Source: Bugula neritina (lineage: Eukaryota > Bryozoa > Gymnolaemata > Cheilostomatida > Bugulidae). From it: a stretch of DNA of 64,000 nt. The notes beneath the pieces are model-generated. The model searched no databases and had not been told where the DNA came from. It saw only the letters and a program-made list of their open reading frames with translations. The stretch is taken from contig OZ037769.1 of NCBI GenBank assembly GCA_964035545.1, forward strand, positions 14,564,633-14,628,632, read 5' to 3'. Positions 3,138-58,197 of this stretch are shown in pieces (the stretch's first letter is position 1; every line of letters starts with the position of its first letter). Position numbers and translations under genes: made by a program.

Positions 3138-4568
3138 TTATTCTCTGGAGTGTACTTTCATGTGGTTAGATAGATTTTGTTTTGTGGTAAAAGTCTGGCA
3201 ACAAGCTGCACATATGTATGGCTTTTCCCCACTGTGTATTCTCATGTGAACATTTAAAGCTCCTTTGTGGCTAAAATTCCGGCCACATGTCTCACATCTG
3301 TAAGGTTTTTCTCCAGTATGTATTCTTATATGAACAACTAGAGTCCCTTTGTGGCTAAAATTCTGGCCACATGTCTCACATTTGTATGGTTTTTCTCTAG
3401 TATGAGTTCTAATATGAACAGTTAGTTGTCCTTTGCGTAAGAAAGTTTTGCTGCAACTTTCACATTTGTAAGGTTTTTCTTCACCATGAATTCTTATTTG
3501 AACCAATAGACTGCTTCTTTGTGTGAAAGTCTTGTCACATAGTTTGCATTTGTATGGCTTTTCTCCATTGTGTATTCTCATATGAGTGTTTAGGTCTCCT
3601 TTTTGTTTAAAAGTTTTACCACAATTATCACATTAATTTGTAAAGCTTTTCCAAGTTGTGCTGTTTCACGGGGTGAGTTAGTTCATCCCTGTCTTTGAAA
3701 ATGGTGTTACATGTTTCAAATTCATATAATTTATTTTCATGGTCAATATTTTTGTATTTAAACAACTCCTGAGATTGTGAAACCTGTTCGCAATGATTTC
3801 TGAACGTGTCATTCTTTTCTAGTTCTATGCATGTTCTAAAGTGTTCTTCACACTTTGCACACCTTCCAGGCTCTTTATTATCTTTTTCTGTGTCAAGGTC
3901 AAACAACAAATAAATGAAGTCTTCCCCACATTCACTACATCTTCTAAGATTTTTATCGCTGTGCATTGTAGCATAGTTATTTGAAACTGGCGTCTGTGAA
4001 CAACCTTCTTCTTTTGTGTCATCTGCTTCAACTTTAAACTCTAAAAGAGGAGATTCCAGATTCTCACATCTGTCATTATTATCAAATGCTAAGTCTTGCT
4101 CTAGAATTTCAATAATAAACATTTAAAATTCACTCAAACAAAATACATAATTGAGTAGCTGTGGTCTAGGGGTTGAAGTGTTTGCTTTGTAAAAACGAAT
4201 TCATGACTTTGAACCTTGACAAAGGCCATTGGTGATGCTAGAAAAAGCATCTAGTCACAATTGCTCTTGTGTCTCATGTAATTTAAAAAAATTCTTAGCC
4301 TGTTCTAACAAAGAGCCGTTCCATCACACAGGATTCTCACAAGGATAGTGACTATTAACTTTCTTGAGTTTAAAATATAGAAGTTTGGGTATATATAGTA
4401 GTTCAAGCAATGCATGGGGAAAGCAGGAGAAATACATGCAAAAATATTGAATTAAAAACAAACTGTACAATTTACTGAAATAAAATTTCCTAAGAGATTT
4501 TTAAATTGAATCGAATTGTTTTATAAAAGGCAATAGAAAGCAACTCTTTACTCACCAACGATAGACAT
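3138..4568 (-). pseudogene. ZNF-A: C2H2 zinc-finger gene, frameshifted
   Basis: Two-exon zinc-finger gene. Exon 1 is 4568-4556 (ATG TCT ATC GTT G, then GTGAG donor); exon 2 starts at 4100 after a CTAG acceptor and continues M-S-I-V-E-Q-D-L-A. A leader with two CX2C pairs is followed by six C2H2 fingers ending at the stop at 3138. The frame breaks at the first finger: relative to sister copies there is a 4-bp insertion (TTAA or an equivalent register) near 3631-3635, after the codons for Y-K, giving an immediate stop. The rest of the array is open in the shifted frame. The second finger has Gln where the first zinc-binding His should be. By family, the protein would be a nuclear DNA-binding factor. 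It is most likely a young pseudogene; a sequencing indel is possible. Confidence 0.8.
4153..4352 (+). mobile_element. tRNA-derived SINE in the ZNF-A intron
   Basis: About 200 bp starting GAGTAGCTGTGGTCTAGGGG, which fits an RNA polymerase III A box, with a degenerate B box (CTTTGAACCTT) about 45 bp later. It lies in the ZNF-A intron, opposite to the gene, close to the acceptor. Four sister copies lie at the same place in other zinc-finger genes. The 3' boundary is approximate. Confidence 0.65.
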
Positions 4569-7229: not shown

Positions 7230-8906
7230 TTATTCTCTAGAGTGTAACTTCATGTGGTTAGTTAGATTTTGGTTTGTGATAAAAGTTTTGCTACAAGTTG
7301 CACATCTGTATGGCTTTTCTCCAGTATGAGTTCTCATATGAACAATTAGATGTCCTTTGTGGCTAAAATTCTTCCCACATGTTTCACATCTGTAAGGTTT
7401 TTCTCCACTGTGTATCCTTATATGAACCAATAGATTGCTACTTTGTATGAAAGTTTTGTCACATATTTTGCATTTGTGAGGTTTTTCTCTAGTGTGAGTT
7501 TTTATGTGAAGAGTTAGGTGAGCTTTTCGTTTAAAAGTATTGCTACAAAATTCACATCTGTAAGGCTTTTCTCCAGTGTGTATCCTCATATGAACAGTTA
7601 AAACTCCTTTTCGTTTAAAATTCTTCCCACATGTCTCACATCTGTAAGGTTTTTCTCCACTGTGCATCTTCATATGAATAAATAAACTACTTCTCCGTGT
7701 ATATGCTTTCTCACACTTTTCACATTTGTGTGACTTTTCTCTAGTATGAGTTCTCATATGGACAGTTAGATCTCCTTTTCGTATAAAACTTTTACCACAA
7801 CTTTCACACTTGTATGGTCTTTCCCCAGTGTGTATTCTTATATGAACAGCTAGAGCTCCTTTGTGGGTAAAAGTTTGCCCGCATGTTTCACACCTGCACA
7901 GGTTATCTCCACTATGTATTCTCATATGAATAGATAAATTACTTTTTCGTGTATATGCTTTGTCACACTTTCCACATTTGTATGGCTTTTCCAAGGTGTG
8001 TTTTATCACAGGGTGAGTTAGTTCATTCCTGTTTTTAAAAAAGGTGTTCGATGTTTCAAATTCATAAAAGTTTTCTTTATGGTTTATGTTCATATATTTA
8101 GGTAACTGTTGAGATTCTAAAACCTGTTTGCAATGATTTCTGTATGAGTCATTCTTTTCTAGCTCCATGCATATTCTTAAGTGTTCTTCACACTGCGCAC
8201 ACCTTTTGGGCTCCTTACTATCTCCTTGTGTGTCAAGGCCAAACAACGAATAAAAGAAGTTGTCCCCACATTCACTGCATCTTTTAAGAGTTTTATTGCC
8301 GTGCATTGTAGCATAATTATTTGAAACTGGCATCTGTAAACAACCTTCTTCTTTTGTGTCATCTGCTTCAGCTTTAAACTCTAAAAGAAGAAATTCCAGA
8401 TTCTCACCTCTGTCATTATTCTCAAATGCTAAGTCTTGCTCTAGATCTTCAATGTTAAACATTCAAAATTTACTTAGATAAAATATATAAGAGAGCAGCT
8501 GTGGTCTAGGGGTTAAGTTGTAGTGTTTGCTTTGTAAAAACGAATCTATGGCTTTGAACCCTGACAAAGGCCATTGGTGATGTTAGAAAGAGCATCTAGT
8601 CATAATTGCTATTGTGGGTCTTATTTAAAATATTTCTTAGCCCATTCTAACAAAGAGCTTTTTCATTATGTAGGATTCTCACAAGGATAGCCACTATTAA
8701 ATTTCTTGAGTTTAAAATGTAGAAGTTGAGCTATATATAGTAGTTCAAGCAATGCATGAGGAGATAAAAACAAATACATGAAAAATTGGTAAGTAAAATA
8801 CAAACTGTGAAAGTTACTAAAACAACATACCTAAATAGATTTGTCCTTATAACTTGTTTTATAAACGATAATGGAATGCAATTCTTTACTCACCACTGAT
8901 AGACAT
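7230..8906 (-). CDS. ZNF-B: intact nine-finger C2H2 protein
   Basis: The only fully open copy of the cluster. Exon 1 is 8906-8894 (ATGTCTATCAGTG, donor GTGAG); exon 2 is 8440-7230 after a CTAG acceptor, giving about 407 residues starting M-S-I-S-E-Q-D-L-A. An ATG at 8462 also opens the frame but lies in the intron by comparison with sister genes. Residues up to about 140 form an acidic leader with two CX2C pairs and a degenerate finger; then nine C2H2 fingers with TGEKP-like linkers run to the stop. Predicted helix contact residues (-1,2,3,6) read RSNI, HGAV, RGDV, RSSI, RGVV, RAHL, QSNV, HGHV, TQNN. Role by family: nuclear sequence-specific DNA binding; targets unknown. The leader matches no named domain I can recall. 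Confidence 0.88.
8493..8700 (+). mobile_element. tRNA-derived SINE in the ZNF-B intron
   Basis: Starts GAGAGCAGCTGTGGTCTAGG (A-box-like) with a B-box-like GCTTTGAACCCTG about 50 bp on. Same position and orientation as the SINE in ZNF-A, so it was inherited through duplication. The end is approximate. Confidence 0.65.
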
Positions 8907-11331: not shown

Positions 11332-14300
11332 ATGGTTGTTACAGATGAGAATAAAAATGTTAGTATAGCTGTAACCAGATACTACAGAATGGGTCAACGT
11401 AAATCTGTCCCTCAACCTCCACCTCAACCTCCAGGTCAGTCAGTCTGTGATAAGTTGGTAAATTATATGATTACAAATACTACAACTAGTGACTACAGAA
11501 ATTTTTATGTTCTGAAAATAAGGTGCAGTAGCGGAGAAATTGAGATAGCCTAAGTTCTTTAAATTTTCTAACAAATTTTGAGTTGAGGTGCAGTTTGAAG
11601 TTCTCATGAAAGCATAACTTCTTTTGCTACATTTCTGATCTAGAAACACAGGCTTTTTTCACTTTTTTCATTACAGTACACCTACCTCTGTTTTGACCAC
11701 AGCTGAGTATTACATTGCTTGTGTTTATTATATAATTTTATATACTGAGTATAATGTATATAACTATTATACTGTACCTTATATTATGTTATTCTATAAC
11801 TATAATTAGATTCACCCAAAACATACTCTATTATATAGTATATTTTATTAAGTTACATTATAGTGCACTATAACCAATTATAATATTTTATAATATAATA
11901 TAACACATGCTGTACAGATCCATACTTAATTACTTCAATACTGTTTATAGTGTTGAAGCATATATTATTCTGTTATTTTATATCAACGTTATTATTCATA
12001 TAGTGGTGCAAATTTTGTAGAAATTTACAAGGTGTGGTTCAACACATCCAGTATAGATAGAGCTGATGATGAGTGGATGGGGAATAGGACTACATCCTAC
12101 ACTATAGAAGAGATCAAGAATAAAAGTAGACATCATACAGTGACTCATGTTAAACTGAGGAATGACATTCCTCCAAATATGAACACACTGTTCCCTCATC
12201 TCACACATCTGAGGGTACATGGAGCAGACAATGTTGACTGGACCAGGTATACTAGTGTTATATTAGAAAACTATATTCAATAAGTGACATATTGTCTTGT
12301 AGTAGAATGTGGAGTAATCTCCTCTCACAATAACACTATAGCTTTGGTAACAACTGTTGTATTATTTACCTTGTTTATTGTATTTCTATTTATTATTCAA
12401 TTTAATGTGAGTGAATCTCATTCAAACTAATATGTGATGATTATATTATACAGTTGAATACTTCGATATACCTGTGCGTTATGTTACAGCATATCTTCAC
12501 TGAAGAATCTTGAAGTATTGAATATATCATATAATGGCCCATCTGAAGGTCTACCTGACAATATATTCACATCCTTACTATCATTGAGAAAGTTGTACAT
12601 GAGTAGCTGTAGACTACCAACTATACCAAACAGGTGTGTATTATATGATAGTGTAGAATGGTCAGCTGAGAGTATTCCTGCTATCAGTAAACATGTAGGC
12701 TGATACAAACTATCAGGTCAAAATGTCGGCTACTAAACTCATAATCCATCTGAATAGCCTACCAGATAGAGAGATGATCTGATCAGCCTGGCAGAACAAA
12801 AACAGGATCTGTCTCAAAGGCCTGCAGTTGGTCAGTTCAGAAAGCAGTCTGTGACACCCTCAAGAGCGGAAACTGATAAACTGGTTTCATTAGGCAGGAA
12901 CACCCTGACCTGATTGATTATATAATTTAGTGTATAGTTAAAGGGACTTGTGTAGTGCATGTGTGCTTCACAAAGTGTTTAATATGTTGCATGAAGTAAT
13001 TATATTATTACTAAAATCTTATAAAACATTTCATATGGTATGTTACAGCATCTCTTCACTGAAGAATCTTGAGGTATTGAATATGTCATTGAATAAGCTA
13101 TCTGAAGGTCTACCTGACAATATATTCACATCCTTACTATCATTGAGAAAGTTGAACATGGAGAACTGTGATTTTTCAACTCTACCAAACAGGTGTGTAT
13201 TATATTATAATGTAGAATGGTACTGTAATAAGTATAAGTTATAAATATATTATAGATATGATTAGGTAGAAGTGTATGGTATTTCTTGATATACAACATT
13301 TCACACCTATGTGTTATGTTACAGCATATCTTCACTGAAGAATCTTGAGGTATTGAATATATCGGAGAATAACCTATCTGAAGGTCTACCTGACAATATA
13401 TTCACATCCTTACTATCATTGAGAGAGTTGAAAATGAGGAACTGTAAACTACCAACTCTACCAAAGAGGTGTGTATTATATTATACATTATGAAGTTGTC
13501 TGCACTATCTTTAGTGAGTCAACTAGACCCTGTGTATTCTACATGTCATAGGACAACTACTTTATTCTATCAGATATACTCAGATAGAAATGGTACAACA
13601 ACTTCTCACTTATTATTCTGATAAAATTATTGAAAATTAAATGGTTTGGCTATGAAATGAAATATATATTTAGACTTATCTGAGAGTTGTATATTGTAAC
13701 TCATAAAATTTTTAAGGAAGTTAATGACAGTTAAAACAACTAACAAAATATAATGATTTTCAGCTGTAATAGCTTATTCAGACGGTCAACCAATTGGACG
13801 AATAGCGGACCAAAATGGCACGACGATTGCGAATTTTGTTCGTTTTGGATCACGTGATTCGACCAATGCCTGTATTGCGCCAAACTAACGTCCTTTGATT
13901 AGTCTGACAGTAGAAGAATTTGTTTGTTTGGATCACGTGATTGACTTTTCAAAATTTCATTGGAACCTGACCCAGCTAGGGTCCAGCTGATGAATTTTAT
14001 TTGATTGCACTCCATTGGCTTATTTCAAAAAGCAAAATGTGTGGACATAATTTGCATGGCAAACAAGTTGCTCATTGCTTGTAACTAAATTAAATAAGCA
14101 ATATTTAATAATATTATTAATAATAAATAAAAATTAACTAAAATAAACAAATTTATAAGAAGAATATTTATTTTGCTTTAGTGAGCAGTGTTGTAGTTTT
14201 GTGCACTACTATAGTTTGTGGGGTTTCAGTGTGTATTATCGATTTAGCACATTAGCTCTAAGTTAATCAATAACTCTTGGTAGTAGCCGAGTAATAAAAC

Positions 14301-17300
14301 ACTTTGTTATCCAAGTTTAGTACAAAAGACAAACATTACAATTACTAACAATTTACAGCAGTATACATTCACAATACGTGCATTCAACTCGAGTCCTCGC
14401 TCACAACAACTCTAGACGCGGGAACTCTCACTTATTATTAGCCTGACCCCAGACTCTTCTTATTGGATAGTCCCATGTGACCCGTCACCTGCACGGGTAT
14501 GTTGTTCCAATATTCCCAGAACAGAGGAGAGACAAAATTTATCATTATTATATTATGTAAACCACCACATCGCTCCCTCCAGCAGAAAGTCCTCTTTCTG
14601 ATAATACATGTAATAATATAATGATATAAAAGAAACATTATAGCATAGAACGCCACATATATAAAACTCTATTTTAAGAAATAACCTTACATTGATAAGA
14701 AAAATAACACACATCAGGTCAGTTATAAAGAGAGGAGTAGCGTCACAGATAAAATAATACACAGCGAAGAATAGTGTAGACGATATTACAACGTTGCCCA
14801 CCGAGATCTGAAGCCGAGGAGGCAAGGTGATTAACTATGGATTCTGAGAGCAGTGTCTAGCCTGTCGGGCCCTCAGCCGCCTCTTGATTCGCCCCACAGA
14901 ATCTTTCAACTGATATAGTCCAGTGGTTGTGTTAAGTAAGTCTGGTGCTAACTGTGTAAAGTCAGCCTGGAGGCGCAGGAGTTGCTCTTTGATGGTCGCT
15001 AACCTGGTAGGCTGCTCTGGCGGTGGTGTGACTGGTCGGGGCGGGGACACTGCCACTTCTTCAGTTACTTCCGTACCACGGGTAGTCCCCGTTCCATTTC
15101 CAGTTCCTCCTCCACAACTGGTCTCGTGACCGGGAGGTGGCCACTCGAGTATTGCCTGAAAGAGTTCAACAGTGTTAGTGATGATACATTGAAGTACCGC
15201 CGGCATGAAACAGCCTGACAAGTGCTCTGTTCAGTTAAACACTCGTGAGATTTAGAGTAATGAATAGTTGGTCGAGAACACACACTGCAATGGCAAATTA
15301 CTAGAATCTCTAAGTCACTATACACATGTGTTTTCACCACTATGCTTCATCAGCAAGTATCTCCAGCTCTTTTAACTAAGGAGTTAGAGCCGATTGTTGC
15401 AGTCTAGTTTCCGTACCAGAGAATATAACTAACTCACCCTTCGATTCAGAATAGTAAGACATTTTGAATGCTAGGAATGATAATAATTATTTATTACTGG
15501 TACGTCTACTCTTAACTCCATCAGCATAAGAAAAGACTGGGTAACGTGTTTGCGAAGCGTGACTAGGGCACTGTGCCTCCGGCGGATAAATCTTATTTGT
15601 GATTCCGCCCGGGCGAAAGTTGATTTTTTTGTGATGCTCACAACTCCCACACTTTGTTGCCAGTCTCTCCGTATGGCACCCGATGGACTTTCATATTTGC
15701 CGCTTTCAACGCAGTCACATACGAAGTCTTTTAAATATGCTGGGGGGTGCCTAGTTCGCTGTCCTCATTCCAGGAGAAGCGGTGTACTCACAGGTGGACT
15801 ATTTAGTTCCACGGGTGGTTTTACCGGCCTGTCAGTGACTGGTATTCCTTCGTTTTGTTCTTCCCTGATTTCTCCAAATGGAGCCCCGCCCCCGGGGGCT
15901 TTTGCACTTCCGGACTCACTTCGGGTTCTGGAAGCGATGGCGTCAGATCTGGTGCTGGAGACGGCGAATGCACTTCCACTAATGGAAGTGGTCGTTCATC
16001 TCTTGCCAAGTCTTCTGCCCGCGGCACGACCACTTCATACTCTGGTCCATGCCGCTGTTGCCCACGCGTTGTTGTCTGCCTCCAGGGCTCCAACAATGGC
16101 GAGGCTTCTCCTACTGCATCCGGGCTAGCCCAATACGGTTTCAAGCGAGCCTCATTCTGGATGGACACAATTTAGCGCTAATTTTGAAATTTAGGGATTA
16201 AACTGAAAATCAAATAGCTGGCTTGGTAGCTATTCATTTAATCAAATTTAATGGCTATAAGTATCCAAAGATTACTAAGCTGCACCATCAACATTAATTT
16301 CAAAAACTTTTAGACTATTCGGGTGGAAACTGGAAGTTGAAAGTAAGCGCTATTGTTTATATACGCGAAAGACAATATATGGTCCATTGATCTGTGGATA
16401 GTGTCGCTTTCAGGGACATATATGGTCCATTGATCGCGTACGGGTTAATACTAGGATTCAGCTGTTTCCTCTGGGTGTTGGGGGCATGGGTCCGACCAGG
16501 TCAACAGCTACCACTTGCCACGGCCTTCCAACATATAACCTCCGTCGTCCCGCTTCACCAGGGAGACGACCATGCTTGCTGGCCTGGCAGACTTCACACT
16601 GTTTTACTCTGAGCCGTACATCACGCCCCATACTGGGCCAGTACCACCGGAGCTGTAATTTGGCGAGCACCCTTTGGACTCCTGCGTCAGCCTGTTTGTG
16701 GATGTCCCATATCACCTCTCGGCGTATGGCTGTCGGGCAGACCCCCCTCTTCCTTTCTGGGTGTCTGTCTGTCGCTGCTAAAGTCATGATCAGCAGACCA
16801 TCTTGCCCGATCCTCAGCGAGTCCCAACGTTGACGGTATAGCCGTAACTCAGTGCACCCCTGTCTTAGCTGGGTCGCCGCCCTTCCTTTTTGGCCCGATG
16901 TACGTCGGCTACCACCCTAGGTAGGCTTTCCTGAAGTCTCTTCAGCTCTCTTACGTTACCGGCCAAAACAGGGTTGGCGCGGAGGTTTTTTTACTACCTC
17001 CGGAGGCGCATCAGCCTTCTGTTTGAGTTGACCCTGGTCCCAGTCATACTCAACTCCCGGATGGACCAGTGCCGCCAACGCGGACAGGGGAGGACCTCCA
17101 TCTCTCTTCTCAATGTTGAAGCACTGTTTACATCCCCCGTCTGGTCGCCGGCTCAGTCCGTCTGCATTGCCGTGTTTGTTACCGGGTCGGTGTTCGATCC
17201 GGTAAGAGAACTCGGCTAGAATCTCGAGCCACATGGCGACCTGGCTAGACGGTTCTGCTCTCGTGCACAACCAAATCAAAGAGGCGTGGTCCAAACCTCT

Positions 17301-19089
17301 CTCGCCCCGGGTTGAGGAGCTTGTGGTTGGCAACGGTTGCGGCCCGGTCGCGGAGGGGGAAACGGCTTGCCTCTCGGCGTCTGCGCCGGTTCCCTTTCAG
17401 GCTCTCAGATCGGAAACCTGTCGAATCTGTTGTGGAGTGGCATAGAGAAGGCATTCGGCGGGTGGCGTTGGTAGCCTACTCGCCGTGGATGTTGCCATTC
17501 CGATGTGTCAGTACGCGGCACCCGGCGGGGTGATTGGCGTCTTCTCTTCCCTCTAGGTTTCATCATCGGCCCGCAATAGGCGGGAACATCTGCGGGCCGC
17601 GGTAGTTTAACCCTTGGAGAACAAGAGGGCAGTATCTCTGGAAATGTCCAGGTCTTCCGCATTCCCAGCAGAGGTTTTGTCCAGTGCCTGGTAATTGCAC
17701 CGGCAGCCCTAAAGGCTCACAGGCGGTATCTACCTGGTCTTGAGGGATTAATATGGTGACTAGCTTGGCTAACATGTCGGTCAGCTGCGCGACCTTCGAT
17801 GCGGCCGTCTGTTGTCTCACATTAACAGACGCGGGGGGGGGGTCTCGCCATTAGATCGGCCAGAGCAGCGGAGGGCTCCAGGTCTACTTGGCGAAAGGCC
17901 CCGCGGTTTTTATGCATATGATTTGCTAGGAGGTATGCTTCTCCTTCGGTGAGAGTGCCCTCGACCGTGGTGATTCCCCTCGCCAGAAACTGGTGATGGA
18001 GTCCCAAGTCGTTGATGGACCGCACAAAGACATCGTAAGTGTACCTTTCACGGTTCGCTTGAGGCAGGTCACTGTATGCGATATGCGCCAGCTTCATCAC
18101 CGTGGCAGCATGCTCTTGTAGGGGCATGTGAGGATTACGCCGTAACCTGAGCGTCAATGACGGAGATGCCAAAACGGGCCCGCAGAAAAGCAAAAATACT
18201 GTTAATGTCAGGTCCCAACCTGTAGGGTTTGGCCTTGTCCATTAACAACATTCTAAGCTTAAGCAGGGCCACCCTAGGTGGCCACTGTGTGACTTCCATC
18301 ACATCATTAAATTCTTGGATGAACTGTTCTACTTCTTCTTCACCTGTGAAAGTAGGTGCCTTCAGCCGGTATCTATCTTCATTCAGCTCCCTAGGAGCTC
18401 TCACTTCTTCTATTGCTGTCGGATGTACAGGAATAACATTATCTTCATGCTCACCTTCACTATGTTTGTTAGTTGGGCATTCGTCGGACCCAACGAATGA
18501 AGATTCTTAGTGTCTGAATAAGCTATAATTATGAAAATCTCACCGATTGTTATACTGAGATATATTATAATATTATACTGGGATATAATATAATGCTATA
18601 CTGAAATATATTATAATGTTATATTGAGATATATTTCTATAGTGTCATACTGAGATATATTATAATGGTATACTGAGATATAATATAATATTATACTGAG
18701 ATATATTATAATACTATACTGAGATATATTATAATGTTATACCGACATATATTATAATGTTATACTGAGATAATATATTATAATGTTATACTGAGATATG
18801 TTATACTGAGATATATTATGATATTATATTGAGATATATTATAATGTTATACTGAGATATGTTATACTGAGATATATTATAATACTATACTGAGATATAT
18901 TATAATGTTATACTGAGATATAATATAATGTTATACTGAGATATATTATAATGTTATACTGAGATATAGTATAATGGTAGTCAATCCAATGTTACTGCAT
19001 TATATCATTTACCTGCTCTTTTGTATCAAATAACTGGGAGTATAACTCCTAACCTATCTATAAATTTTATACAATACATTGCACAATCT

Positions 19090-19120
<31 letters not shown>

Positions 19121-22100
19121 TATGAATTGTGTTATGGAACTTCAATATTCATTTTTTGCAAACCCCATTTTTAAAGCCTCAAATATATATATGTTTCATA
19201 TTTATTAGCATACAGAGTCTACAGAAGTTAGAGGAACTGGAGATATCATGGAATAAGTTCACCAGTATACCATATCCTGTGTACTCACTGAGTAGTTTGC
19301 GGGTACTAGATATATTTTCCAATAGATCCCTGACATCCTTAGACCCTGAGATACTACAGCTAACGCAACTTCATAAACTGGATGTTGGATCTTGTAAGGG
19401 TCTCACCTCTCCTCCACTAGAAGTATGTGAGAGAGGCGTAAATGCTGTGAGACAATACTACACAGACTTGGCTAAAGGTGCTGGTAGGAGTCTACCATTT
19501 GCTATTGTAGCTATGCTAGGTAATACAATGGCCGGAAAGACCAGTTTAACCAAAACATTACAGAATGCTGACAGAAAGAGAGTTTTGACCAACAGAGAGC
19601 CAGATGCTGTGAAAGATGAGACAACAAAGGTGTTTAATGTTGAAGAAGTGGAGGTGGATGGTACAGTACTCCGTGTCATTGATATGGGAGGCCAGGAGGT
19701 CTACCATATCACCTATCAACTGACACTGAGACAGAACTGCATTCCAGTCATAGTAGTCAACATGGAACAGTATGATAAGACTTCAAGTGAATCAACAGAC
19801 AGAGAAGCTGTTAGAAGATTAGCCTTTGATTACATGTCTCACCTCTACATGGCTAACCCAACTCTTGGTCCACCAAAACTTATCTTCACCCATAAAGATA
19901 AGTTTCAAGATACAGCATTTCAGAAGCTTCGAAAAAGCTTTCTTGAAACATCAAATAAACTGTGTGAGGAGATGATTAGAGAAGAGAAAGAATTGGGTGG
20001 AGAATTTGCTCAAATAGAACATTTCAGTGAATCAGCCGGAGGAGTCTTTCTTGGTGAGGACATTTATGAGGTCGGAAAGGATGATAAGTATGAAGTGTTT
20101 GACCTGATCAAGGAATCTCTTCTTCATAGCAGTCAACATTTTGTGAAACCTTTACCTCTTGTCTGGGAGGAAGTGAATGAAAATGTGCTGTCTATTCCTT
20201 CTGTGTACAGCACCTTTGATGAGATACTGAAATACGTACAAACAGAACTTCAACACATTGAGTCAGGTCAGCTTGACATAATCCTCACATACATGCATGA
20301 CTGCGGCAAAGTCTTGTGGTATAAAGATATCAGCTGTCTCAGGCCGTACATATTCCACAATATTTCAGAAGTCACCAAACTCCTCTGTGTCTTGTATCAT
20401 CATGATCCTAAGATCTGGCAGAGTAGAGTTGATCAGTTCCAGCCATACTATTCGCAGACTGAACGACGTGTTGAGAAACAGGAACTTGAGAAATCTGTCA
20501 ATGATCTCACTGACACTGGTTTGATGATGCAGTCACTTCTTGTTTATTTCATTGAAAAAGAGACATCATTCAAAAGTTCTAAAGATGTTGAAGTTGCCGT
20601 CTGCTTACTCCAGACGTTTCGTTTGCTGTACAGTCCAATACATGGCAAATCTGAAGAGCCATGGTTCATTGTACCTCAGTATGCTAAAAACTACTGCAGC
20701 ACTTCTCCTTCCCCACCCAATGGCATTTTGCTTCAAGTGGAGACACACTTCAATGGTCTAGCCCTGCCACAATATGTCTACCACCAGATGACGATCGGTT
20801 TGTTGGAATCGTTCCCAGATGAGTTTGCTGTGATGAAAGTGAAGAGAAACGGAGCTGATGTCTTTCAAGATAAAATCCACACGAAGCTGGTACATGATTG
20901 CAAATCTAGAAAAGTGTCACTCTACGTGTCATCTAATGCTGCCAACATTAGCAGAATGTGGGAGAGACTCATCACCACCAACAACAACATCCTTAGACAT
21001 GTTTTAGAAAATTGGACAGCAAGTAGACCAGTCACTACATGCTACTGTGCTCACTGCCTTCTGCTAGGACTTCCTTGTCCTAAGAAAGTGCTCAATCCTC
21101 CATGGTGTCTTCACTCCTTGAAACATTCTCCATCAAAGCCCAGATTGTGTACTGGATCCTTAACAACTCTGTGTGGTGATGAGAAGATAAGGGGTGCTCT
21201 TCTCTATCCATGTATGTTTGGTTACATTATGGTGCAGTTCCTGTATTAAGTTTTATTTCATTGCAGTTTACCACATTTAGATATGAATTGAGGTAATTCT
21301 CCCCATTCCTTGGCATAATTGGGGTTAGAAAAAGAATTATTTATATATTCTATTTCCAAGTATTTCAAAATTTCAGGTCAAACATTGTCTGAGAGAGAAG
21401 CTGATGAGTTGGAGAAGTTTGTGAATGAGCTGAATCGTCGAGGAGCTCAAGAAAGATTAGCTAATTCTGGTAAATACGGAGTTACCAGTTTGTGCAAGCG
21501 TCTGTTTTTTGAATGTTGATCAAGTTCAACTTGAACTGGTTAAGCACTAAATGATTTTACTGCAGTTTATTTCATACCATGTCACCATTTTTTTGCAAGA
21601 ATTTGGGTTCTTTAAAAGTTTTGCTTTATTTGGTAAAGTAATGAACGTATATTATTGCACCACAGCTGAGTACTAGTTTGCCGATCATTGTGATATTATA
21701 TTTCTTATTTATTCCGTGATGTGATATGAATTTGTACTTTATAGTTGCCAACAGCAGCCAATCAGATTTCCCGACCTCCACAATAACAGCCAATGACGCT
21801 CTCAGTGATCTCTCTGATGATGATGAGAATCTGTACCCTGATGAAGAGGAAGTTGAAAATATGAAGTTTATAAGACTCAGACTGATTCCCACCAGCAACC
21901 CGAATATAATACAGCTGTTCTCAAACACTGACAAGGTGATCACTTCTAATGTCTATGTCATTTATTCTTGCCAGTTGTTTAGTTCGGCAGTTACAAGTAT
22001 TTCTCTGTTACATCCAGGTGTTTAAAACAACCCCAAAAAGAGGAAGAGCTCTGATAATAAACAACATGAACTTTGATAAGAGACCCGACTTGTGTAGGAA

Positions 22101-24990
22101 AGGTTCAGATGTGGATGTAGAGAATCTTTCCACCATGTTGAAAACTCTCAAGTTTGATGTTGTGACACACGCAGACCTGAAGGCTGAGGTATGTTTTGCT
22201 GCTGTTTACTTATCAAGGTAAAAACTTACTCCTCTGTTTGTTTACAAACACTACATATGTATACAGAATACGGTGTAACGGTTTACAGGTGTAAGGCCAG
22301 GTTTACAGGTGTAAGGCTGGGTTTACAGGTGTAAGGCTGGGTTTACAGGTGCAAGGCCGGGTTTACAGATATAAGGGTTTACAGGTGTAAGGGTTTACAG
22401 ATGTAAGGCTGGGTTTACAGGTTTATGGGTTTACAGGTGTAAGGGTTTACAGGTGTAAGGCTGGGTTTACAGGTGTAAGGCCGGGTTTAATGTTGAGGCC
22501 TCTGGACACTGAAGCAGGGTTAATCCAGCACCACTTATTGACCATTTTTAATAAATAATGGTTAACAAATTAAGTGTTTAAAGTAAACAAGTCAAATGAG
22601 TCATTATTATTGTTATTAATAATTTTGACTTAAGAATAGGAATGGGTTTATATTCTATAACTGAATTGGCTTATTAATAGTTTTACCGGGGCTGATTAAT
22701 GCCGAAGTCCTTACTTTAACATAAATTGTTAAATTAAAATTAAAGTAAATGAGCTTTATAAGCTATTTCTTCACCTCATATGATTTTAGTTTAGCTAAAT
22801 GTTCAAAGATCTAGTACAAATTTTCATAAGTTTTAAAGAATCTTTGAAATTTAGATAAGACTTCCGCCATCCCATTTTCAATATTTTACTTCTTGTTGTA
22901 GGAAATGCTGTCTGCTGTAACATTTGAGGTAAAAAAAGAGGAATACAAAGATCTGGGATGTCATGTGTTAGTTATCATGACTCATGGAGGGTTGAACAAC
23001 TACATCTATGGTACAGACTTAAAACGAGTCAAACTAACAGATGTGTATGACCTTCTAACTCCTTTGAACTTCCCAGGAATGGCTGGCAAACCAAAGGTTG
23101 TTATACTGGAAGTCTGTAGTGGAGGTAATCAGTTTAAAAAATTATTTGTGGTCACTGTAGAGTTGTGTTCTCTTGAATGCTAGTATTTGCTGGAGTATGT
23201 TAACTTACAACCCATTTCACAATTATGTAGATTAATTCTTACATATTTGACACTGTTTATGTTCATCATATGAAAATTAAATATAATTTTTTTATATCTC
23301 TCACAGAGAGGAGTGATTATGGCCAAAGAGGTATAGACAGATTTGATATCGGAGAATCACAAAAGGAGGGGGAGAGTATCTCACTTCCACTTGCTAAAGT
23401 TCCAGGAGATAAAAATGCGGAGGCTATGAATAGACTGAACTATGATGACCTGCTAGTAGTGAAATCTAGCATGGAGTGTAAGTAAGACACATGTAATGGA
23501 GTACAAGTTACTGTATCCATGATATTATACTGTATAACTAGTCAACTAGTTGTATTTCCAATAGTTGAATAATTTATATGATCGATTCTACTTGTAGCAT
23601 TCATATCAAAAAGCCACCCTGAGTATGGATCTCTAATGGTTAGAGCTCTTGTATCTTCCATATATAAACATGCCTGTCACCATGACCTCTTCACCATATT
23701 CAAACAGGTGAATGTATTGCACTTTGTTACACTTATAAGCATGGAGAACTGATGAAATTGAAAATGGCACAAATTAATGTTAGCTGTTGGCAAACTTTAT
23801 TAATTTTAGGAGTAGATATTTATAATTATTTTACAGTTTGTTATAGACTATAGAGTATTCACAGTTTACTTTTGTTATAGTGTAGGTATTGTTACAGTGA
23901 AGGTATTGTTATAGTGAATGTATTGTTATAGGGTAGACATTGTTATAGTGTAGGTATTGTTATAGTGTAGGTATTGTTATAGTGAAGGTATTGTTATAGT
24001 GTAGGTATTGTTATAGTGTAGGTATTGTTATAGTGAAGGTATTGTTATAGTGTAGGTATTGTTATAGTGAAGGTATTGTTATAGTGAAGGTGTTGTTATA
24101 GTGTAGGTATTGTTACAGTGTAGGTATTGTTACAGTGTAGGTATTGTTATAGTGTAGGTATTGTTATAGTGTAGGTATTGTTATAGTGTAGGTATTGTTA
24201 TAGTGTAGGTATTGTTATAGTGTAGGTATTGTTATAGTGAAGGTATTGTTATAGTGTAGGTATTGTTATAGTGTAGGTATTGTTATAGTGAAGGTATTGT
24301 TATAGTGAAGGTATTGTTATAGTGTAGGTATTGTTATAGTGTAGGTATTGTTATAGTGAAGGTATTGTTAGAGTGTAGGTATTTTTATAGTGAAGGTATT
24401 TTTATAGTGAAGGTGTTGTTATAGTGTAGGTATTGTTACAGTGTAGGTATTGTTATAGTGTAGGTATTGTTATAGTGTAGGTATTGTTATAGTGTAGGTA
24501 TTGTTATAGTGAAGGTATTGTTATAGTGTAGGTATTGTTATAGTGTAGGTATTGTTATAGTGAAGGTATTGTTATAGTGTAGGTATTGTTATAGTGAAGG
24601 TATTGTTATAGTGAAGGTAATGTTATAGTAAAGGTATTGTTATAGTGAAGGTATTGTTATAGTGAAGGTATTGTAATAGTGAAGGTATTGTTATAGTGTA
24701 GGTGTTGTTATAGTGAAGGTATGGTCATAGTTAAGGTATTGTTATAGTGAAGGTATTGTTATAGTGAAGGTATTGGTTATTTAGAATAATCTGGTATAGA
24801 GTAGTAATAAGATTTCAATGTTTACTTGCTTAACATTCTTCAGGTGCAGACGAAAGTGAGAAAACTGTGTTTAGACAAAAATCTAGAGAGTGGAGGACAG
24901 TTGGTTGTAGTTTGGGATACTCTCACTCATATGAGAAAACTTTACCTCTTTCCTGGTTTTAATGGCCTCAAAAGAGAAGATGACTCTTAG
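11332..24990 (+). CDS. LRR-Roc-COR-caspase fusion protein (Roco GTPase with C-terminal caspase)
   Basis: Thirteen inferred exons: 11332-11434, 12021-12246, 12490-12633, 13049-13192, 13325-13468, 19209-21211, 21377-21469, 21745-21935, 22018-22188, 22902-23124, 23307-23477, 23598-23707, 24844-24990. All junctions are GT-AG and in phase; total 3870 nt, 1289 residues plus TAG. Domains: proline-rich start (1-34); leucine-rich repeats (about 85-345); Roc GTPase with P-loop GNTMAGKT (358-365), switch DMGGQE (412) and THKD (481-484); COR to about 920; acidic linker; caspase from 1017 with His1101 (MTHGG) and Cys1145 (EVCSGG), 44 residues apart as in caspases, and a p10-like end. Inferred role: a cytosolic sensor whose GTP-driven COR dimerisation activates a protease, perhaps in cell death or immunity. 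Exon 1 and the start codon are the least certain parts. Confidence 0.87.
12490..13468 (+). repeat. Three tandem 144-nt leucine-rich-repeat exons
   Basis: Exons 12490-12633, 13049-13192 and 13325-13468 are each exactly 144 nt, begin and end in phase 2, and encode two LRRs (48 residues) with the core I-S-S-L-K-N-L-E-V-L-N and G-L-P-D-N-I-F-T-S-L-L-S-L. They are nearly identical in nucleotide sequence, and the acceptor side (TATGTTACAG) and donor side (GTGTGTATTATAT) of the introns are shared too. Because each exon is a phase-symmetric module, the LRR array can grow or shrink without breaking the frame. Confidence 0.9.
14217..14569 (-). repeat. Probable 3' LTR of the gypsy relic
   Basis: Read on the minus strand this 353-bp block begins TGTGG and ends CCACA, the TG...CA ends typical of LTRs, and is preceded by a purine-rich tract (GGAGGGAGCG) that fits a polypurine primer site. 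It lies downstream of the degraded integrase in element orientation. I do not find a matching second LTR on the other side. The assignment rests on position and termini. Confidence 0.55.
14570..18511 (-). mobile_element. Ty3/gypsy retrotransposon relic (gag, RNase H end, integrase parts)
   Basis: Minus-strand, in intron 5 of the Roco-caspase gene, much richer in GC than its surroundings. From right to left: gag-like frames (18404-17822), a retroviral-type zinc knuckle CX2CX4HX4C (within 17820-17563), the C-terminal end of RNase H (H-R-P-G-N-K-H-G-N-A-D-G-L-S-R, near 17150), the integrase zinc-binding region and first catalytic Asp (V-D-L-V-G-P) within 16787-16458, which runs into a stop, an integrase C-terminal tail (R-L-K-P-Y-W, near 16140), and a C-terminal frame at 15221-14835. 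Reverse transcriptase is essentially missing between 17405 and 17333, and the element is cut at its 5' end near 18511 with no 5' LTR. It is dead. Confidence 0.8.
16173..16352. mobile_element. Possible 180-bp MITE nested in the gypsy relic
   Basis: An AT-rich block inside GC-rich retrotransposon sequence. Its ends are imperfect inverted repeats (TAGCGCTAATTTTGAAATT against TAGCGCTTACTTTCAACTT, 15 of 19 matching). It falls where the integrase core should continue. The target duplication is ambiguous (TA or TT). Just right of it an 18-bp motif (ATATATGGTCCATTGATC) is repeated in tandem at about 16376 and 16418. Confidence 0.45.
18549..18975. repeat. Minisatellite, about 23-bp unit, in Roco-caspase intron 5
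   Basis: Imperfect tandem copies of TTATACTGAGATATATTATA plus a short variable tail, some shortened to 15-16 bp, for roughly 425 bp. It directly abuts the right inverted repeat of the gypsy insertion, 230 bp before exon 6. Confidence 0.9.
19209..21211 (+). other. Exon 6 of the Roco-caspase: last LRRs, Roc and COR
   Basis: One 2003-nt exon after acceptor ATTTATTAG, ending at the strong donor GTATGT. The open frame extends upstream to 19129 and downstream to 21249, but both extensions are intronic: LRR homology starts exactly at the acceptor, and the next exon (21377) completes a Cys codon in phase. The Roc part carries GNTMAGKT, DMGGQE and THKD. The COR part ends with a Cys-rich segment (C-Y-C-A-H-C) as in MFHAS-like animal Roco proteins, recalled from family knowledge. 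Confidence 0.88.
22280..22489. repeat. 20-bp minisatellite in a caspase-domain intron
   Basis: About ten imperfect copies of GTTTACAGGTGTAAGGCTGG, between caspase exons 22018-22188 and 22902-23124. Some units lack the GCTGG part. The rest of this intron shows nothing recognisable. Confidence 0.9.
23878..24774. repeat. 17-bp minisatellite in the last intron of the Roco-caspase
   Basis: Around fifty copies of a 17-bp unit (GTAGGTATTGTTATAGT and GAAGGTATTGTTATAGT variants) filling most of the 1.1-kb intron between the two p10 exons. The GTA/GAA variants are interspersed in a way that suggests unequal exchange. Confidence 0.95.
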
Positions 24991-28017: not shown

Positions 28018-29815
28018 TTATTCTCTAGAGTGTACTTTCATGTGAAAAGTTAGATGGTGTTTTCTGGTATAAGTCTTGCTACAAGTTTCACATCTGTATG
28101 GCCTTTCTCCAGTGTGAGTTCTCATATGAACAATTACAGTTTCTTTGTAGCTAAAATTCTGGCCACATGTGTCACATCTGTATGGCTTTTCTCCAGTATG
28201 AGTTCTCATATGAACAATTAGTTCTCCTTTTCGTCTAAAAGTTTTACCACAAACTTCACATCTATATGGCTTCTCTTCACTGTGTGTCCTCATATGAAGA
28301 GATAGAGTACTACTTTGTTGAAAAGTTTTATCGCATACTTTGCACCTGTAAGGTCTTTCCCCAGTGTGGATTCTCATATGAATATTTAGAGTTCCTTTGT
28401 GGGTAAAAGTCTGACCACATGTTTCACATCTGTAAGGCTTTTCTCCACTGTGAATTCTCATATGAACAATTAAATGTGCTTTTTGTCTATAAGTCTTGCC
28501 ACAACTTTCACATCTGTAAGGCTTTTCTCTACTGTGAATTCTTAAATGACTCAATAGATTGTTTTTTTGTGAGAAATTCCTATCACATATTTTGCACTTG
28601 TAAGGCTTTTCCCCAGTGTGTATTCTCATATGAACAATTAGAGCTCCTTTGTGGGTAAAAGTCTGGCCACATGTTTCACATTTGTATGGTTTTTCTCCAC
28701 TGTGATTTCTCATATGACTCAATAGATTGCTTCTTTGTGTGAAAGTCTTGTCACATAATTTGCATTTGTATGGTTTTTCTCCACTGTGTATCCTCATGTG
28801 AATAGATAAACTACTTCTCTGTGTATATGCTTTGTCACACTTTTTACATTTGTATGGCTTTTCTAAGTTGTGCTTTTTAATGGGGCTATAAGTTAGTTCA
28901 TCCCTGCTTTTGAAAATGGTGTTACATGTTTCAAATTCGTAAAAGTTTTCTTAATGGTTGATGTTCATATATTCAGGTAGTTCCTGAGATTGTGAAACCT
29001 GTTCGCAATGATTTCTGTATGAGTCATTCTTTTCTAGCTCCATGCATGTTCTAAAGTGTTCTTCACACTTCGCACACCTTTTGGGCTCTCTACTATCTTC
29101 TTCTGTGTCAAGGCCAAACAATGAATAAACGAAGTCTTTCCCATACTTCCTACATCTTTTAAGATGTTGATTGCTGTGCATTGTAAGATAGTTATTTAAA
29201 ACTGAAGTCTGTGAACAACCTTCTTCTTTTGTGTCATCTGCTTCAACTTTAAACTCTAAAAGAGGAGATTCCAGATTCTCACCTTTCTCTCTGTTCTCAG
29301 ATGCTAAGTCTTGCTCTGGAATAATAACATCAAAAATATACAGTTTATTTAGATAAAATACAAAAAGGAGCAGCTGTGGTTTAGGGGTTTGCCTAGTAAA
29401 CACAAAGTCAAGGGTTTGAACCCAGACAAACGCCATTGGTGATGTTAGGAAGAGCACCAAGTCATGATTGCTCCCGTGAATCATTTAAATGGGCCCTTAA
29501 TAGCATGCTTTAACAAAAACAGTTTCTATAAAGGGTTTCTTCCAAGAACATGCGATTCTCACGGGGATAGCGACTATGAACTTGTGTGAGTTTGAAATAT
29601 AAAATATGAATATAAAATATAAAAATTGCTGTATATATACAGTAGTTCAAGCAATGCATGGGGAGTTAAAGACAAATACAGGCAAAAATTATTAACTAGA
29701 AGCAACCTGTAAATAACTTTACTAAAACGAAATCTCTTGGTAGATTTTTAAATTGAATCAGAATGTTTTATAAAAGACAACAGAAGACAACTCTTTACTC
29801 ACCACTGATAGACAT
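28018..29815 (-). pseudogene. ZNF-C: ten-finger C2H2 gene with one internal stop
   Basis: Exon 1 is 29815-29803 (ATGTCTATCAGTG); exon 2 starts at 29315 after acceptor TTATTATTCCAG and continues E-Q-D-L-A-S-E-N-R. The frame is open except for one TAA at 28953-28951, where the sister ZNF-B has AAA (Lys) and ZNF-F GAA (Glu) after N-I-N-H. After it the same frame stays open to 28018 and encodes ten intact C2H2 fingers with TGEKP/SGEKP linkers. The product would be either a 120-residue leader fragment or, with re-initiation, a finger-only protein. The array shows no decay, so the stop is recent, a polymorphism, or a sequencing error. The upstream ATG at 29484 lies in the SINE and intron and is not the start. 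Confidence 0.82.
29368..29577 (+). mobile_element. tRNA-derived SINE in the ZNF-C intron (best boxes)
   Basis: Best-preserved copy: starts GAGCAGCTGTGGTTTAGGGG (A box), with B box GGTTTGAACCC at 29413-29423. A shared non-tRNA body (GATGTTAGGAAGAGCA) follows. Same intronic position and orientation as in the other copies. Confidence 0.72.
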
Positions 29816-32000: not shown

Positions 32001-32489
32001 TTATTCTCTAGAGTGTACTTTCATGTGCTTAGTTATATTTTGTTTTCTGGTAAAAGTCTTGGTACAAGTTGCACATCTGTATGGCTTTTCTCCAGTATGA
32101 GTTCTCATATGAACAATTAGATCTCCTTGTCGTATAAAAGTTTTACCACAACTTTCACATTTGTATGGTCTTTGCCCAGTGTGTATTCTTATATGAACAA
32201 CTAGAGCGCATTTGTGGCTAAAATTCTGGCCACATGTCTCACATCTGTATGGCCTTTCTCCAGTATGAGTTCTCATGTGGACAATTAGTTGTCCTTTTCG
32301 TCTAAAACTCTTGCTGCAAATTTCACATTCGTAAGGTTTTTCTTCACTGTGACTTCTTATATGACTCAACAAATGGCTACTTTGTGTGAAAGTCTTGTCA
32401 CATAATTTGCATTTGTATGGCCTTTCTCCACTGTGTATTCTCATATGAGTGTTTAAATCTCCTTTTTGTATAAAAGTTTTACCACAAAC
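32001..32489 (-). pseudogene. ZNF-D: 5'-truncated C2H2 zinc-finger gene
   Basis: Five complete fingers and one partial finger on the minus strand, ending with the family's H-S-R-E stop. Finger homology ends abruptly at about 32489 inside the CX2C of the first finger (C-G-K-T-F-I-Q-K-G-D-L-N-T-H is left). No leader, SINE or first exon is present to the right, where unrelated sequence begins. The flank to the left is nearly identical to that of ZNF-B, so this is a truncated end of a duplicated block rather than a degraded gene. It could be transcribed only from a foreign promoter. Confidence 0.82.
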
Positions 32490-42399: not shown

Positions 42400-45240
42400 G
42401 TTTTTTAGCTGGTGTAACCTTTTACCATTGGCCTAGTTATACTAGGCTGAAATGGATAGAACTTTCCTCAGGATGTGAGCTTATCCTGATCCTAGTAAGG
42501 GTGTCTGCTGAATTAATGAGCATTTGTTTTCAGCTACTCCAAGTAGTGTCAGCCAGTCTACAATCTTGTATAAAGCTCCAAAGGCTCCAGTTACAACGGG
42601 ATGACTTTTTTGATGTTTTCCAAAGGCGGGTTTATTCTAGTGCTAAATTCTGATATTTTCCTAACTTTTCGAATTTTTTTTCTTTCACTCTGTAGTTAAC
42701 AGGGACTGTGATATAAATTATCGTTGTTTCAGCATTATGCTTGTCAACTACTAATATATCGGGTCTCCTAACTTTGATGACTACGTCAGTGTGTATGTTA
42801 AAATCTTACAAGGTTTTTACATTATCATTTTCCAGTACGGATTCTGCTTGATGGCCGTACCAATTCTTACTTTTCTGAAACCCACGAAGTTCACACAACT
42901 ACTATTGAAATTATCAATGCCAAAAGGTTGTGTTTTTTCTTATATTCTCCTTCTGCTACCTTCTCAAACTCACTCAATACGTGCATCGAAGTTTTGTCTC
43001 TTGCGTTACACATTCCACACTTCTTGCTACCCTGTTCTCTCATCATAGCCACTTCATAATTTCTAGTAGTGAATAGTTGATCTTGCGCAGCTGTCAGCAG
43101 TCCTTCTGTTTCCTTTTTCAGCCAACCATACTTCAACCAGTTCCAGGAAAATGCTTTCATGTCTTCCACCATTTTGATGTATTGACCACGTGAAGCTTTT
43201 TCTTTACACTCATCAATTCTTTCTATCACTTTATCATTATTTAGTTCTACCGCTGTTTTGTCTTTTAGAAAGGTATTCAGTGTGGTGTTTCTATCAGTCT
43301 GTGTTATATTTATGTAGTCTGACATGCTGCAGTTTTCAATCTTTATGCATTTTTCAGTTGACAACATTCTTCTACCGCCTTCCCTACTGCTAAAATACAG
43401 CCTGCCTACATCTGCTCTCGGATAGGGTGCACGGTTTGTTGTCATTAGCTTCCTTGTCTTTCAGTCCATATTTTTTAGCTCATGAAACAGTTCAGTCAAG
43501 TATTCTAGCTGTGTAATGCACTGCTGTTACTGCCCATGTGTTTATTGCTTTGATTGTGTTCTCACCATTCAGTTTTGAATCCAGAACTTTTCTTATTTGT
43601 TTGTAGTACTCCTTGATCTTATTTTTCATTTCATATATTTGTATTCTATCAATCTCAAGAACTCCTAGATATTTATACGGCTTCTCACCCAGATCTTTAA
43701 TTACCTGTTCCTCAGGCAAACTGATTCCTGTGTCCTTGATTTTCTTTCCCTTTCTCATAACCAGTGTGGCACATTTTTTAATCCAAATTTCATTTCTATA
43801 TTCCTTGTGAAGATCCCGGCAGTGTTTACCAAAGCTTCCAGTTCTGACTTTGATTTCCTATTTACCTTCAGGTCATCCACATATAGGAGATAGTTTGTTT
43901 TCTGTCTCGTCGAAATTTGCATCATTGAGCCGCTTCTGTCATGCGAATCGGTAGTTGGAGAAAAGGGATAGAGATAAAGAGTCTCCTTGGAAAATTCTTA
44001 GTTTGATCTTTATTTCTCCTATCTTTTCTTCCAGGTATTTCAGTTGTGTTTTCCAGGTTTCATGCTTTTTCTTATCAACCTTTTGACATTAATTGCTATT
44101 CCAGTTGTTTGCATCGTTTCTAAGATCTAATTTCCTTGTCTTTACATATGCTCCAATTTGTTGCTAACTTTATTTAGTCATTCTGCATTGGTATTATTTT
44201 TAGTTGGCTGACCCCATAATTATATTTTATCAGAATGCTTTTGATTTCCTTGTCAGGTGCCTCTTTAGATGTACATTCATTTCCTCGTAATTCTTGATAA
44301 AAGCGCTTATCATTGTAAACATTGTGTTCTGATTATATTGATCAACTCATTCTGTATATCTGTTTATCTTCTGGCTTACAGCTCTCAGGTTTTGCTTCAG
44401 TTTTTCAATCACTACACCACACTCTTTGTTTTTTATCCTATATTTTTCTTCAACCATTCTTCTCAATGAATCATTGTAAGCTCTACTTTTTCACTCTGCT
44501 ATTTTACTTAAGTCTGATCTAATTTTTTTTATTTCTTCTGCAGTCGTATTTTCCATACTTGTACATTGTCAGTTTTTCTTTTTCCTTTTTGTTACACACT
44601 TGTTCTGTTACTATTTTTCGCACAAGCCATGGTGGTGCTATTAAGCTCAATGGTATTAATAATCTCAACACAGTTTAGCACATCATTAATCTGTTTTACT
44701 GCCTGTAGTAATTTGACCCTCTCAATGTGCCTAAGGGCTCTTAGTGTTGGTCGATCATTAGATAGTTTGTTATGCTCATTTATAATTTTTCTACTAACAC
44801 TTTTTCTACCTCTGAACTAGGTACTCTTAAAATTCTCATGGCTGATTTATATGCTATCTCATGTTGTACTATAACATCCTCTATTTGCAAATTTAGCTCT
44901 TCTTCATCAATTGATGTGCCTAATTTTTGCAAGGTTCCTTCTTCAATCTTATGGAGTTCTCCTTCCATAAAATGCTTGTGTTTCTTCATAGTTCTTGCTT
45001 AATCCGCTAGTCTCTATTCGCTGATGTTAAACTCTCCTCTGTTTTCCAGCGTTTGCACATTCTTTTTAAATAATTCTTTGATCCGGGTCTACAGAGCTCA
45101 TACATTGTTTTTCTATGACCTCTCAATTTGGGTGTACTTTTGAAGCAGCATTTCATGACAACTTTGTTGTCTTCTCTTGAGTATCTTCTTCTAGTTGTGC
45201 CAGTAACGGGTTGACGGCCGTAGGTTGCCTGGTCCTCCAC
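42400..45240 (-). mobile_element. RLE-type non-LTR retrotransposon relic (R2/R4-like)
   Basis: Minus-strand, broken into several frames. In element order: an N-terminal basic segment resembling the Myb-like region of such elements (R-R-R-Y-S-R-E-D-N-K-V-V-M-K-C, 45240-45007); a reverse-transcriptase motif like I-F-Q-G-D-S-L-S (near 43990); the catalytic box YVDD (43883-43872); the RT thumb (43758-43492); a region with CX2C and His (within 43445-42891) whose final Cys is Phe; and a restriction-like endonuclease core R-R-P-D-I-L-V-V-D with a following I-T-V-P (about 42763-42660). Several frameshifts and stops show it is inactive. The clade is uncertain; the endonuclease excludes APE-type LINEs. 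The 3' end is approximate. Confidence 0.75.
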
Positions 45241-57209: not shown

Positions 57210-57211
57210 TA

Positions 57212-58197
57212 TGAATAGATAAATTACTTCTCTGCGTATATGCTTTGTCACACTTTTCACATTTGTATAACTTTTCTGAGTTGTGTTTTTTTACGGGGAG
57301 AGTTAATTCATTCCTGTCTTTGAAAATGGTGTTACATATTTGAAATTCATAAAAGTTTTCTTCATGGTTTATGTTCATGTATTTAGGTAACTCCTGATAT
57401 TGTGAAACCTGTTTACAATGATTTCTGTATGCGTCATTTTCTGCTAGCTCCATGCATGTTCTAAAGTGTTCTTCACACTTTGCACACCTTTTGGGCTCCT
57501 TACTATTTTCTTTTGTGTCAAGGCCAAGCAACGAATAAATGAAGGCTTCCCCACACTCACTACACCTTTTAAGATGTTTATTACTGTGCATTGTAGGATA
57601 GTTATTTGAAACTGGCGTCTGTGAACAACCTTCTTCTTTTGTATCATCAGTTTCAACTTTAAACTCTAAAAGAAGAGATTCCAGATTCTCACCTTTCTTT
57701 CTATTCTCAGATGCTAAGTCTTGCTCTGGAATATTAATAATAAACATTTACAATCTGCTGAGATAAAATATAAAAGAGAGCAGCAGTGGTATATAGGGGT
57801 TAAAATGTTTGCTTTGTAAACACAAAGTTAAGGGTTTGAACCCAGACAAAAGCCATTAGTGATGTTAGGAAGAGCATCCAGTCATAATTGCTTTCATTTA
57901 AATAAGCTCTTAGCCCAATTCATTAAAAACTCTTTTCTATCAGGGATCTCTTACAGAGACAGTGACTATAAACTTGTGTGAGTTTAAAATATATATATTC
58001 TTCTATAGAAGTTGTGGTATGTATAGTAGTTCAAGCAATGCATGGGGAGATAAAGACAAAAATACATGCAAAACCCTGAATAAGAAGCAAACTGGGAAAT
58101 TTACTAAAACAAAATGCCTAAATAGAATTTTAAACTGAATCAAATTTTTTTTTAAAAGGCAATAGAAGACAACTCTTTACTCACCACTGATGGACAT
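57212..58197 (-). pseudogene. ZNF-F: zinc-finger gene split by a transposon
   Basis: Exon 1 is 58197-58185 (ATGTCCATCAGTG); exon 2 starts at 57725 after acceptor ATTAATATTCCAG and gives E-Q-D-L-A-S-E-N-R. The Cys-rich leader and the beginning of finger one ([19 protein letters not shown]) are open until 57212, where the 4.3-kb element begins; translation then stops at 57196. A short continuation lies at 52846-52891. The leader is undamaged, so the insertion is probably the primary lesion. It would yield about 175 residues with no complete finger. Confidence 0.85.
57778..57975 (+). mobile_element. tRNA-derived SINE in the ZNF-F intron
   Basis: GCAGCAGTGGTATATAGGGG gives a degraded A box; B box GGTTTGAACCC lies at 57833-57843. 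Same intronic position and orientation as the others. The end is approximate. Confidence 0.65.

Follow-up and report, generated by a model that had tools for sequence, protein, structure and literature searches.

Roco proteins are known for ligand sensing by leucine-rich repeats (LRRs) and for nucleotide-dependent dimerisation. MFHAS1 and the C. tepidum Roco have the domain order LRR-Roc-COR and end after COR, whereas at the Bugula neritina locus described here the same order is followed by a caspase. In LRRK1/LRRK2 and DAPK1 (Roco groups 2 and 3), Roc-COR and an enzyme are present on one chain, as here, but that enzyme is a kinase (accompanied by a death domain in DAPK1) and the enzyme of the Bugula protein is a protease (PMC6337361). 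None of the three Roco groups given in the available text of this review has a protease, and the words 'caspase' and 'protease' do not occur in that text. LRR-caspase and TNFR-caspase hybrids were described from amphioxus in 2008 and, according to the text available, proposed to provide a shortcut from recognition to death that bypasses adaptors (PMC2575513). An earlier note on this DNA limited the effectors of known animal Rocos to kinase and death domains, or none. This is too narrow, as the amphioxus Roco P0051 has a trypsin-like domain at its C-terminus, a peptidase as at the B. neritina locus, but not a caspase. Our preferred reading of that locus, held with moderate confidence, is that one gene of a large family encodes a single protein with an LRR sensor and a Roc-COR switch followed, after an acidic linker, by a caspase at the C-terminus.

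The gene is on the forward strand of the window, the 64,000-nt stretch of B. neritina DNA that was analyzed, where a splice model joins 13 GT–AG exons into a single open frame of 1324 aa, with no stop or frameshift across the 1324 codons. The 13 in-phase exons and single frame claimed in the earlier note hold up; the 1289-aa version is likewise in phase, and the 1324-aa model is preferred. Exon 1 (11332..11522, with 11332-11434 also possible) is an open frame with the start codon and a GT donor, its 5′ end is uncertain, and its relatives are nearly absent from the B. neritina genome. Exon 2 (12004..12246, with 12021-12246 also possible) is N-terminal, ahead of the LRRs, and 26 of the 66 Roc-COR exons identified in this genome (see below) have a same-strand relative of it no more than 10 kb upstream, a count based on 76 of 79 matches, the three to exon 1 being omitted. 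Exons 3 (12490..12633), 4 (13049..13192) and 5 (13325..13468), identified by the splice model, Pfam and exon comparison, are LRR cassettes of 144 bp, each phase 2 to 2. They are 85-90% alike, their 60-bp flanks give no ungapped alignment, and their length and phase suit exon duplication. The available text on brown-algal Rocos documents phase-2 LRR exons with shuffling (PMC11378527). Exon 6 (19209..21211; 2003 bp) encodes the last LRRs, the Roc GTPase and COR, as indicated by Pfam, a fold match and the 66 genomic exons. It is followed by exon 7 (21377..21469), encoding linker, and exon 8 (21745..21935), encoding the acidic linker that precedes the caspase (LSDLSDDDENLYPDEEE), for which AG/GT borders are present in 8/8 and 10/10 full-length copies, respectively, the window's own included. 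The p20 part of the caspase is divided between exon 9 (22018..22188), with Arg1078, supported by the splice model, Pfam and relatives, and exon 10 (22902..23124), with His1136, Glu1178 and Cys1180, supported by the splice model, solved caspases and relatives. Based on the splice model and relatives, exon 11 (23307..23477) encodes the p20/p10 linker and the start of p10. Exon 12 (23598..23707), supported also by solved caspases, encodes p10 sequence with Ser1245 where Arg is usual, and exon 13 (24844..24990) encodes the end of p10 and the stop codon, which is 41-48 codons into the exon in 13/13 copies, the window's own counted. Other exon choices were rejected as stops arise, and the donor of exon 11 was placed at 23477. 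An Rfam scan at gathering scores returned no match.

The predicted 1324-aa protein has, in order, LRRs, Roc, COR, an acidic linker and a caspase. A Pfam scan identified Roc (PF08477, 29.5 bits versus a cut-off of 27), with P-loop, DxxG and T/NKxD motifs at residues 393, 447 and 516, and a caspase domain (Peptidase_C14, 121.6 bits) at residues 1059-1282 that is homologous to solved caspases (best E 2.3e-22). COR-A scored under its Pfam cut-off, and the COR directly after Roc was recognized by fold, the Roc-COR fold matching structure 6hlu. No match to NACHT/NB-ARC or to a death-fold Pfam family was present in the 1324-aa protein at E up to 1. Group-1 (MFHAS1-type) Rocos have no effector after COR, and the caspase encoded by exons 9-13 separates the Bugula protein from them.

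The earlier note treated the gene as single, but it is one of 66 scored members of a family. A search of the B. neritina genome (215.85 Mb in 295 contigs) with the exon-6 protein found 66 Roc-COR exons, the window's own counted, a number that is a lower bound as 66 of 152 candidates were scored. The other Roc-COR exons are 61-85% identical to exon 6 of the window, and an internal stop is lacking in 64 of the 66. Among the caspase matches listed (the best 150 of 176 plus the best 150 of 158), at least 60 of the 66 are followed on their own strand by a match within 10 kb, and at least 58 by one within 5 kb, with a median distance of 1.3 kb; an upstream match within 10 kb accompanies one of the 66, and matches on the opposite strand accompany none, on either side. 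Four of the six Roc-COR exons that lack a listed match (L005, L015, L018 and L019) have caspase exons detectable by tblastn, for L019 the first p20 exon only, and among the matches listed there is no caspase within 10 kb of those at C6:2539429 and C6:2607458, the nearest downstream being at ~10 and 15 kb. An earlier tally placed a caspase match within 6 kb of 53 of 58 merged Roc/COR anchors, based on 39 of the 150 Roc matches listed (open frames of at least 460 aa) and 21 of 23 COR matches; the remaining Roc matches were set aside, many of them being interrupted by stops, split or located on small contigs. Genome-wide, the strongest match to Peptidase_C14 is G000 (C4:5000994-5001812, minus strand), where a single frame of 345 codons encodes a complete caspase domain.

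A Roco gene and an adjacent caspase gene that were wrongly joined would be in keeping with the caspase matches that are also present in the genome apart from the 66 Roc-COR exons, and with the conservation of the sole Met of exon 8 in close relatives. That two genes are involved is, nevertheless, very improbable. A GT is present directly after exon 6, at the same position, in 25 of 27 members (26 loci plus the window), whereas read-through past exon 6 in these 25 meets a stop 4-45 codons further on, its position differing among members. For the two exceptions, the distant members L023 and L024, the alignment does not reach the exon 6 boundary. The Met of exon 8 is substituted in L021, L025 and L026. 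Homologous AG/GT borders were found for exons 7 to 12 in 8, 10, 15, 21, 12 and 13 copies, respectively, 79 of 79 when the window's six are counted. In addition, all eight of the proteins scanned from a second bryozoan, Watersipora subatra (P0003-P0005, P0122, P0123, P0125, P0127 and P0128, which are NCBI gene models and so predictions, though produced independently of the splice model described here), unite LRRs and a caspase with traces of Roc or COR in one model, although all of their Roc and COR matches are under Pfam cut-offs. Genome relatives and W. subatra gene models together give good support to the LRR-Roc-COR-caspase fusion predicted in the earlier note.

The W. subatra models P0003-P0005 align with 88% of the query length at 33% identity. 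Of 11 W. subatra relatives, 8 have a P-loop pattern; the models for P0124 and P0126, two of the three without it and in which only the caspase was detected, start inside the Roc region. Several of the relatives are annotated as MFHAS1 homologs. In P0127, the Roco-caspase part of the model is followed by fibronectin type III domains and a C-terminus that is hydrophobic, and P0122 and P0123 start with MG and may have lipid anchors. The predicted structure of a whole Watersipora homolog had a pTM of 0.47, with the linker at pLDDT <50, much of p10 poor and no domain contacts. PF00656 is present in four of the best 120 of 269 protein matches, all four from Watersipora, and of the 12 proteins returned by a search with the Watersipora caspase region, all are from Watersipora except one prawn protein. 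A search with residues 610-1324 returned one metagenome protein and so says nothing on absence elsewhere; given the limited sensitivity of these searches, restriction to bryozoans cannot be inferred.

The Roc-COR and caspase halves are both under purifying selection. Of 325 pairs for each half, 246 were usable for Roc-COR, with a median dN/dS of 0.27, and 127 for p20, with a median of 0.21, and no value is >1 in either; the pairs are not independent, and those for which dS could not be computed or was outside 0.05-1.5 were omitted. These values argue against decay of either half. In the DNA examined, no match to exon 12 (p10) is present at L012, L019 or L021. The window copy could be a decaying duplicate of an otherwise active family, given that its introns contain a retroelement fragment and long satellites and that exon 1 is weakly conserved. 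We consider such a pseudogene highly improbable, as its 1324 codons have neither stop nor frameshift and dN/dS relative to its closest relatives, L001-L003, is about 0.2 to 0.46. The retroelement-like frames are in intron 5, the largest, at about 14835-18506 on the minus strand; of three scanned, one is an Integrase_H2C2 match and two had no match. Satellite arrays are present at 18548-18976 in intron 5 (23-bp units), at 22280-22489 in intron 9 (20-bp units) and at 23872-24780 in intron 12 (53 copies of a 17-bp unit). On both sides, the Roco-caspase gene is flanked by C2H2 zinc finger-like genes on the minus strand (3138-4122, 7230-8462, 28018-29484, 32001-32489, 57196-57747 and 60851-61564). 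Several share an N-terminal region, and the shared N-terminal piece at 28951-29484 has no Pfam match. Frames at 42891-43857, also on the minus strand, look like what is left of a reverse-transcriptase element, and Pfam gave no match for the one scanned.

Roc-COR exons that are 79-91% alike can carry very different caspase types. In the 25 most unequal pairs, p20 parts that are 37-43% alike follow Roc-COR exons that are 83-91% alike, and of the 190 pairs whose Roc-COR exons are at least 78% identical, 107 have a p20 identity <55%. For three pairs with unlike types, L016/L015, L004/L013 and L005/L008, DNA likeness drops where exon 6 ends or shortly beyond it and never recovers in the stretch compared. 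In the control pair with a like type, L016/L012, likeness also drops in the intron, but across exons 8 to 10 most blocks are again 94-100% alike. The type B caspases, from eight loci, form one clade with 100/100 support on a caspase tree of 136 columns that has several long branches. L019, which has no Cys-exon match, is in neither this tree nor the Roc-COR tree. On the Roc-COR tree, type B requires four changes and is united in 0 of 200 bootstrap trees, and a constraint to a type B clade was rejected (AU p 5e-69). The Roc-COR tree nonetheless shows clustering by caspase type, with 6 changes versus a shuffled mean of 9.8 and a value as low in 1 of 200, and exchange is thus occasional. We interpret this pattern as the linking of a Roc-COR cassette with differing effector cassettes through recombination or conversion, in which either side may have moved.

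The S1-pocket residues Arg, Gln and Arg bind P1 Asp in caspases. In the window copy, the catalytic His1136 (in MTHG) and Cys1180 are both present and Arg1078 is kept, but two of the three usual Asp-pocket residues differ. Glu1178 is located where the aligned solved caspases have Gln, the pentapeptide is EVCSG rather than QACxG, and Ser1245 aligns with the p10 Arg of CED-3. Of the complete caspase described in the earlier note, the domain and the His/Cys dyad are therefore present, with Glu replacing the Gln of QACxG and Ser at the p10 Arg position. With these two changes an Asp-cutting enzyme cannot be assumed, and the window copy probably combines an intact dyad with an altered pocket for which the usual cleavage after Asp is unlikely. 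Among 26 sequences with a Cys exon, EVCSG occurs nine times, HACSG six, ETCSG four and QACSG twice, with single occurrences of EACSG, EAASG, ETYKG, QAC end and VAC end. Glu is present two positions ahead of the Cys site in 15 of 15 type-A members, which marks it as a kept feature rather than random decay. All 11 W. subatra relatives (P0003-P0006 and P0122-P0128), which have the same architecture, have QAC(S/A/G)G in contrast to the EVCSG of the window copy. Metacaspases and paracaspases cut after basic residues. The acidic residue at the Gln position recalls these enzymes, but the presence of Arg1078 precludes predicting specificity.

In cFLIP, a caspase-like domain acts as a decoy or inhibitor. 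The window caspase could likewise be a non-working decoy, scaffold or inhibitor of family members, a reading that is unlikely but has appreciable weight. The Glu two places before the Cys and the Ser at the p10 Arg position are in its favor, as is the loss of the Cys in two members (Tyr in L005, Ala in L026) of the 26 caspases compared, 24 of which keep it. Counter to this, His and Cys are both kept in the window copy and in 13 of 14 other type-A members, and p20 is under purifying selection.

Returning to the preferred reading, the protein is likely a sensor, switch and protease in one polypeptide, as judged from its predicted domains. Initiator caspases are activated by being brought together. 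Here, LRRs would bind a ligand, the dimer state of Roc-COR would shift with the bound nucleotide, and dimerization would join two caspase domains, activating them by proximity without a death-fold adaptor. A family this large, with swapped caspases and in some members no catalytic Cys, suggests a diversifying repertoire for defense, self-recognition or cell removal. More tentatively, and with less than even confidence, bryozoans may possess one-polypeptide 'inflammasomes', dozens of LRR-Roc-COR-caspase receptors in which a fairly constant switch is recombined with varied caspases, some having a new specificity and others being inactive decoys, for defense or colony self-recognition. The zooids of bryozoans undergo cyclic breakdown, and the same protein could instead function in developmental cell removal, for example in this breakdown. 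Caspases do act in animal development and the sequence names no ligand, but the 66 scored members, exchanged effectors and separate LRR exons would seem to resemble recognition genes more, and we consider a solely developmental role rather improbable. In the B. neritina genome, a NACHT search gave a single match, covering 45 positions (E 6.5e-6), and gasdermin-like sequence matched three times above cut-off, over 65-71 positions. As the NACHT search was exon by exon and had no animal control, these NACHT and gasdermin results are suggestive for the role, not strong. If the preferred reading is correct, the locus would provide a natural design with sensing, switching and proteolysis on one chain, and a testbed for whether the nucleotide state of Roc-COR controls an attached enzyme through dimerization, of relevance to LRRK2-type proteins. 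The family would then amount to a large caspase repertoire with exchange of modules, in a phylum that has received little study, and its members would form a natural series of caspase substrate-pocket changes.

An NLR inflammasome is assembled from several proteins, with a NACHT switch and death-fold adaptors. With caspase-1, it is analogous to the predicted Bugula protein in having an LRR sensor, a nucleotide switch and a caspase output, and the comparison with an inflammasome is a fair analogy. In the amphioxus hybrids, a recognition domain is joined directly to a caspase, as here, but QACXG is kept there, and 'roc' does not occur in the available text of that report (PMC2575513). Brown-algal group 3 Rocos have, according to the text available, a C-terminal trypsin-like peptidase and not a caspase (PMC11378527). 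The metagenome protein P0032, presumably bacterial, has LRR, Roc, COR-A, COR-B and CHAT matches, all above cut-off, with CHAT in place of Peptidase_C14. CHAT is a caspase-fold relative. No published description of a Roco-caspase was found in the open-licence literature, surveyed mostly as titles and the starts of abstracts; 'roco' and 'caspase domain' both occur in the available text of PMC13229695. The novelty that the earlier note attached to a caspase effector survives to that extent, but the amphioxus LRR-caspase hybrids and the CHAT domain of P0032 precede it. Family size and cassette exchange are likely to surprise specialists most; given the hybrids, the peptidase Rocos and the CHAT protein, together with the literature survey, the architecture itself is best described as a variant on a known theme.
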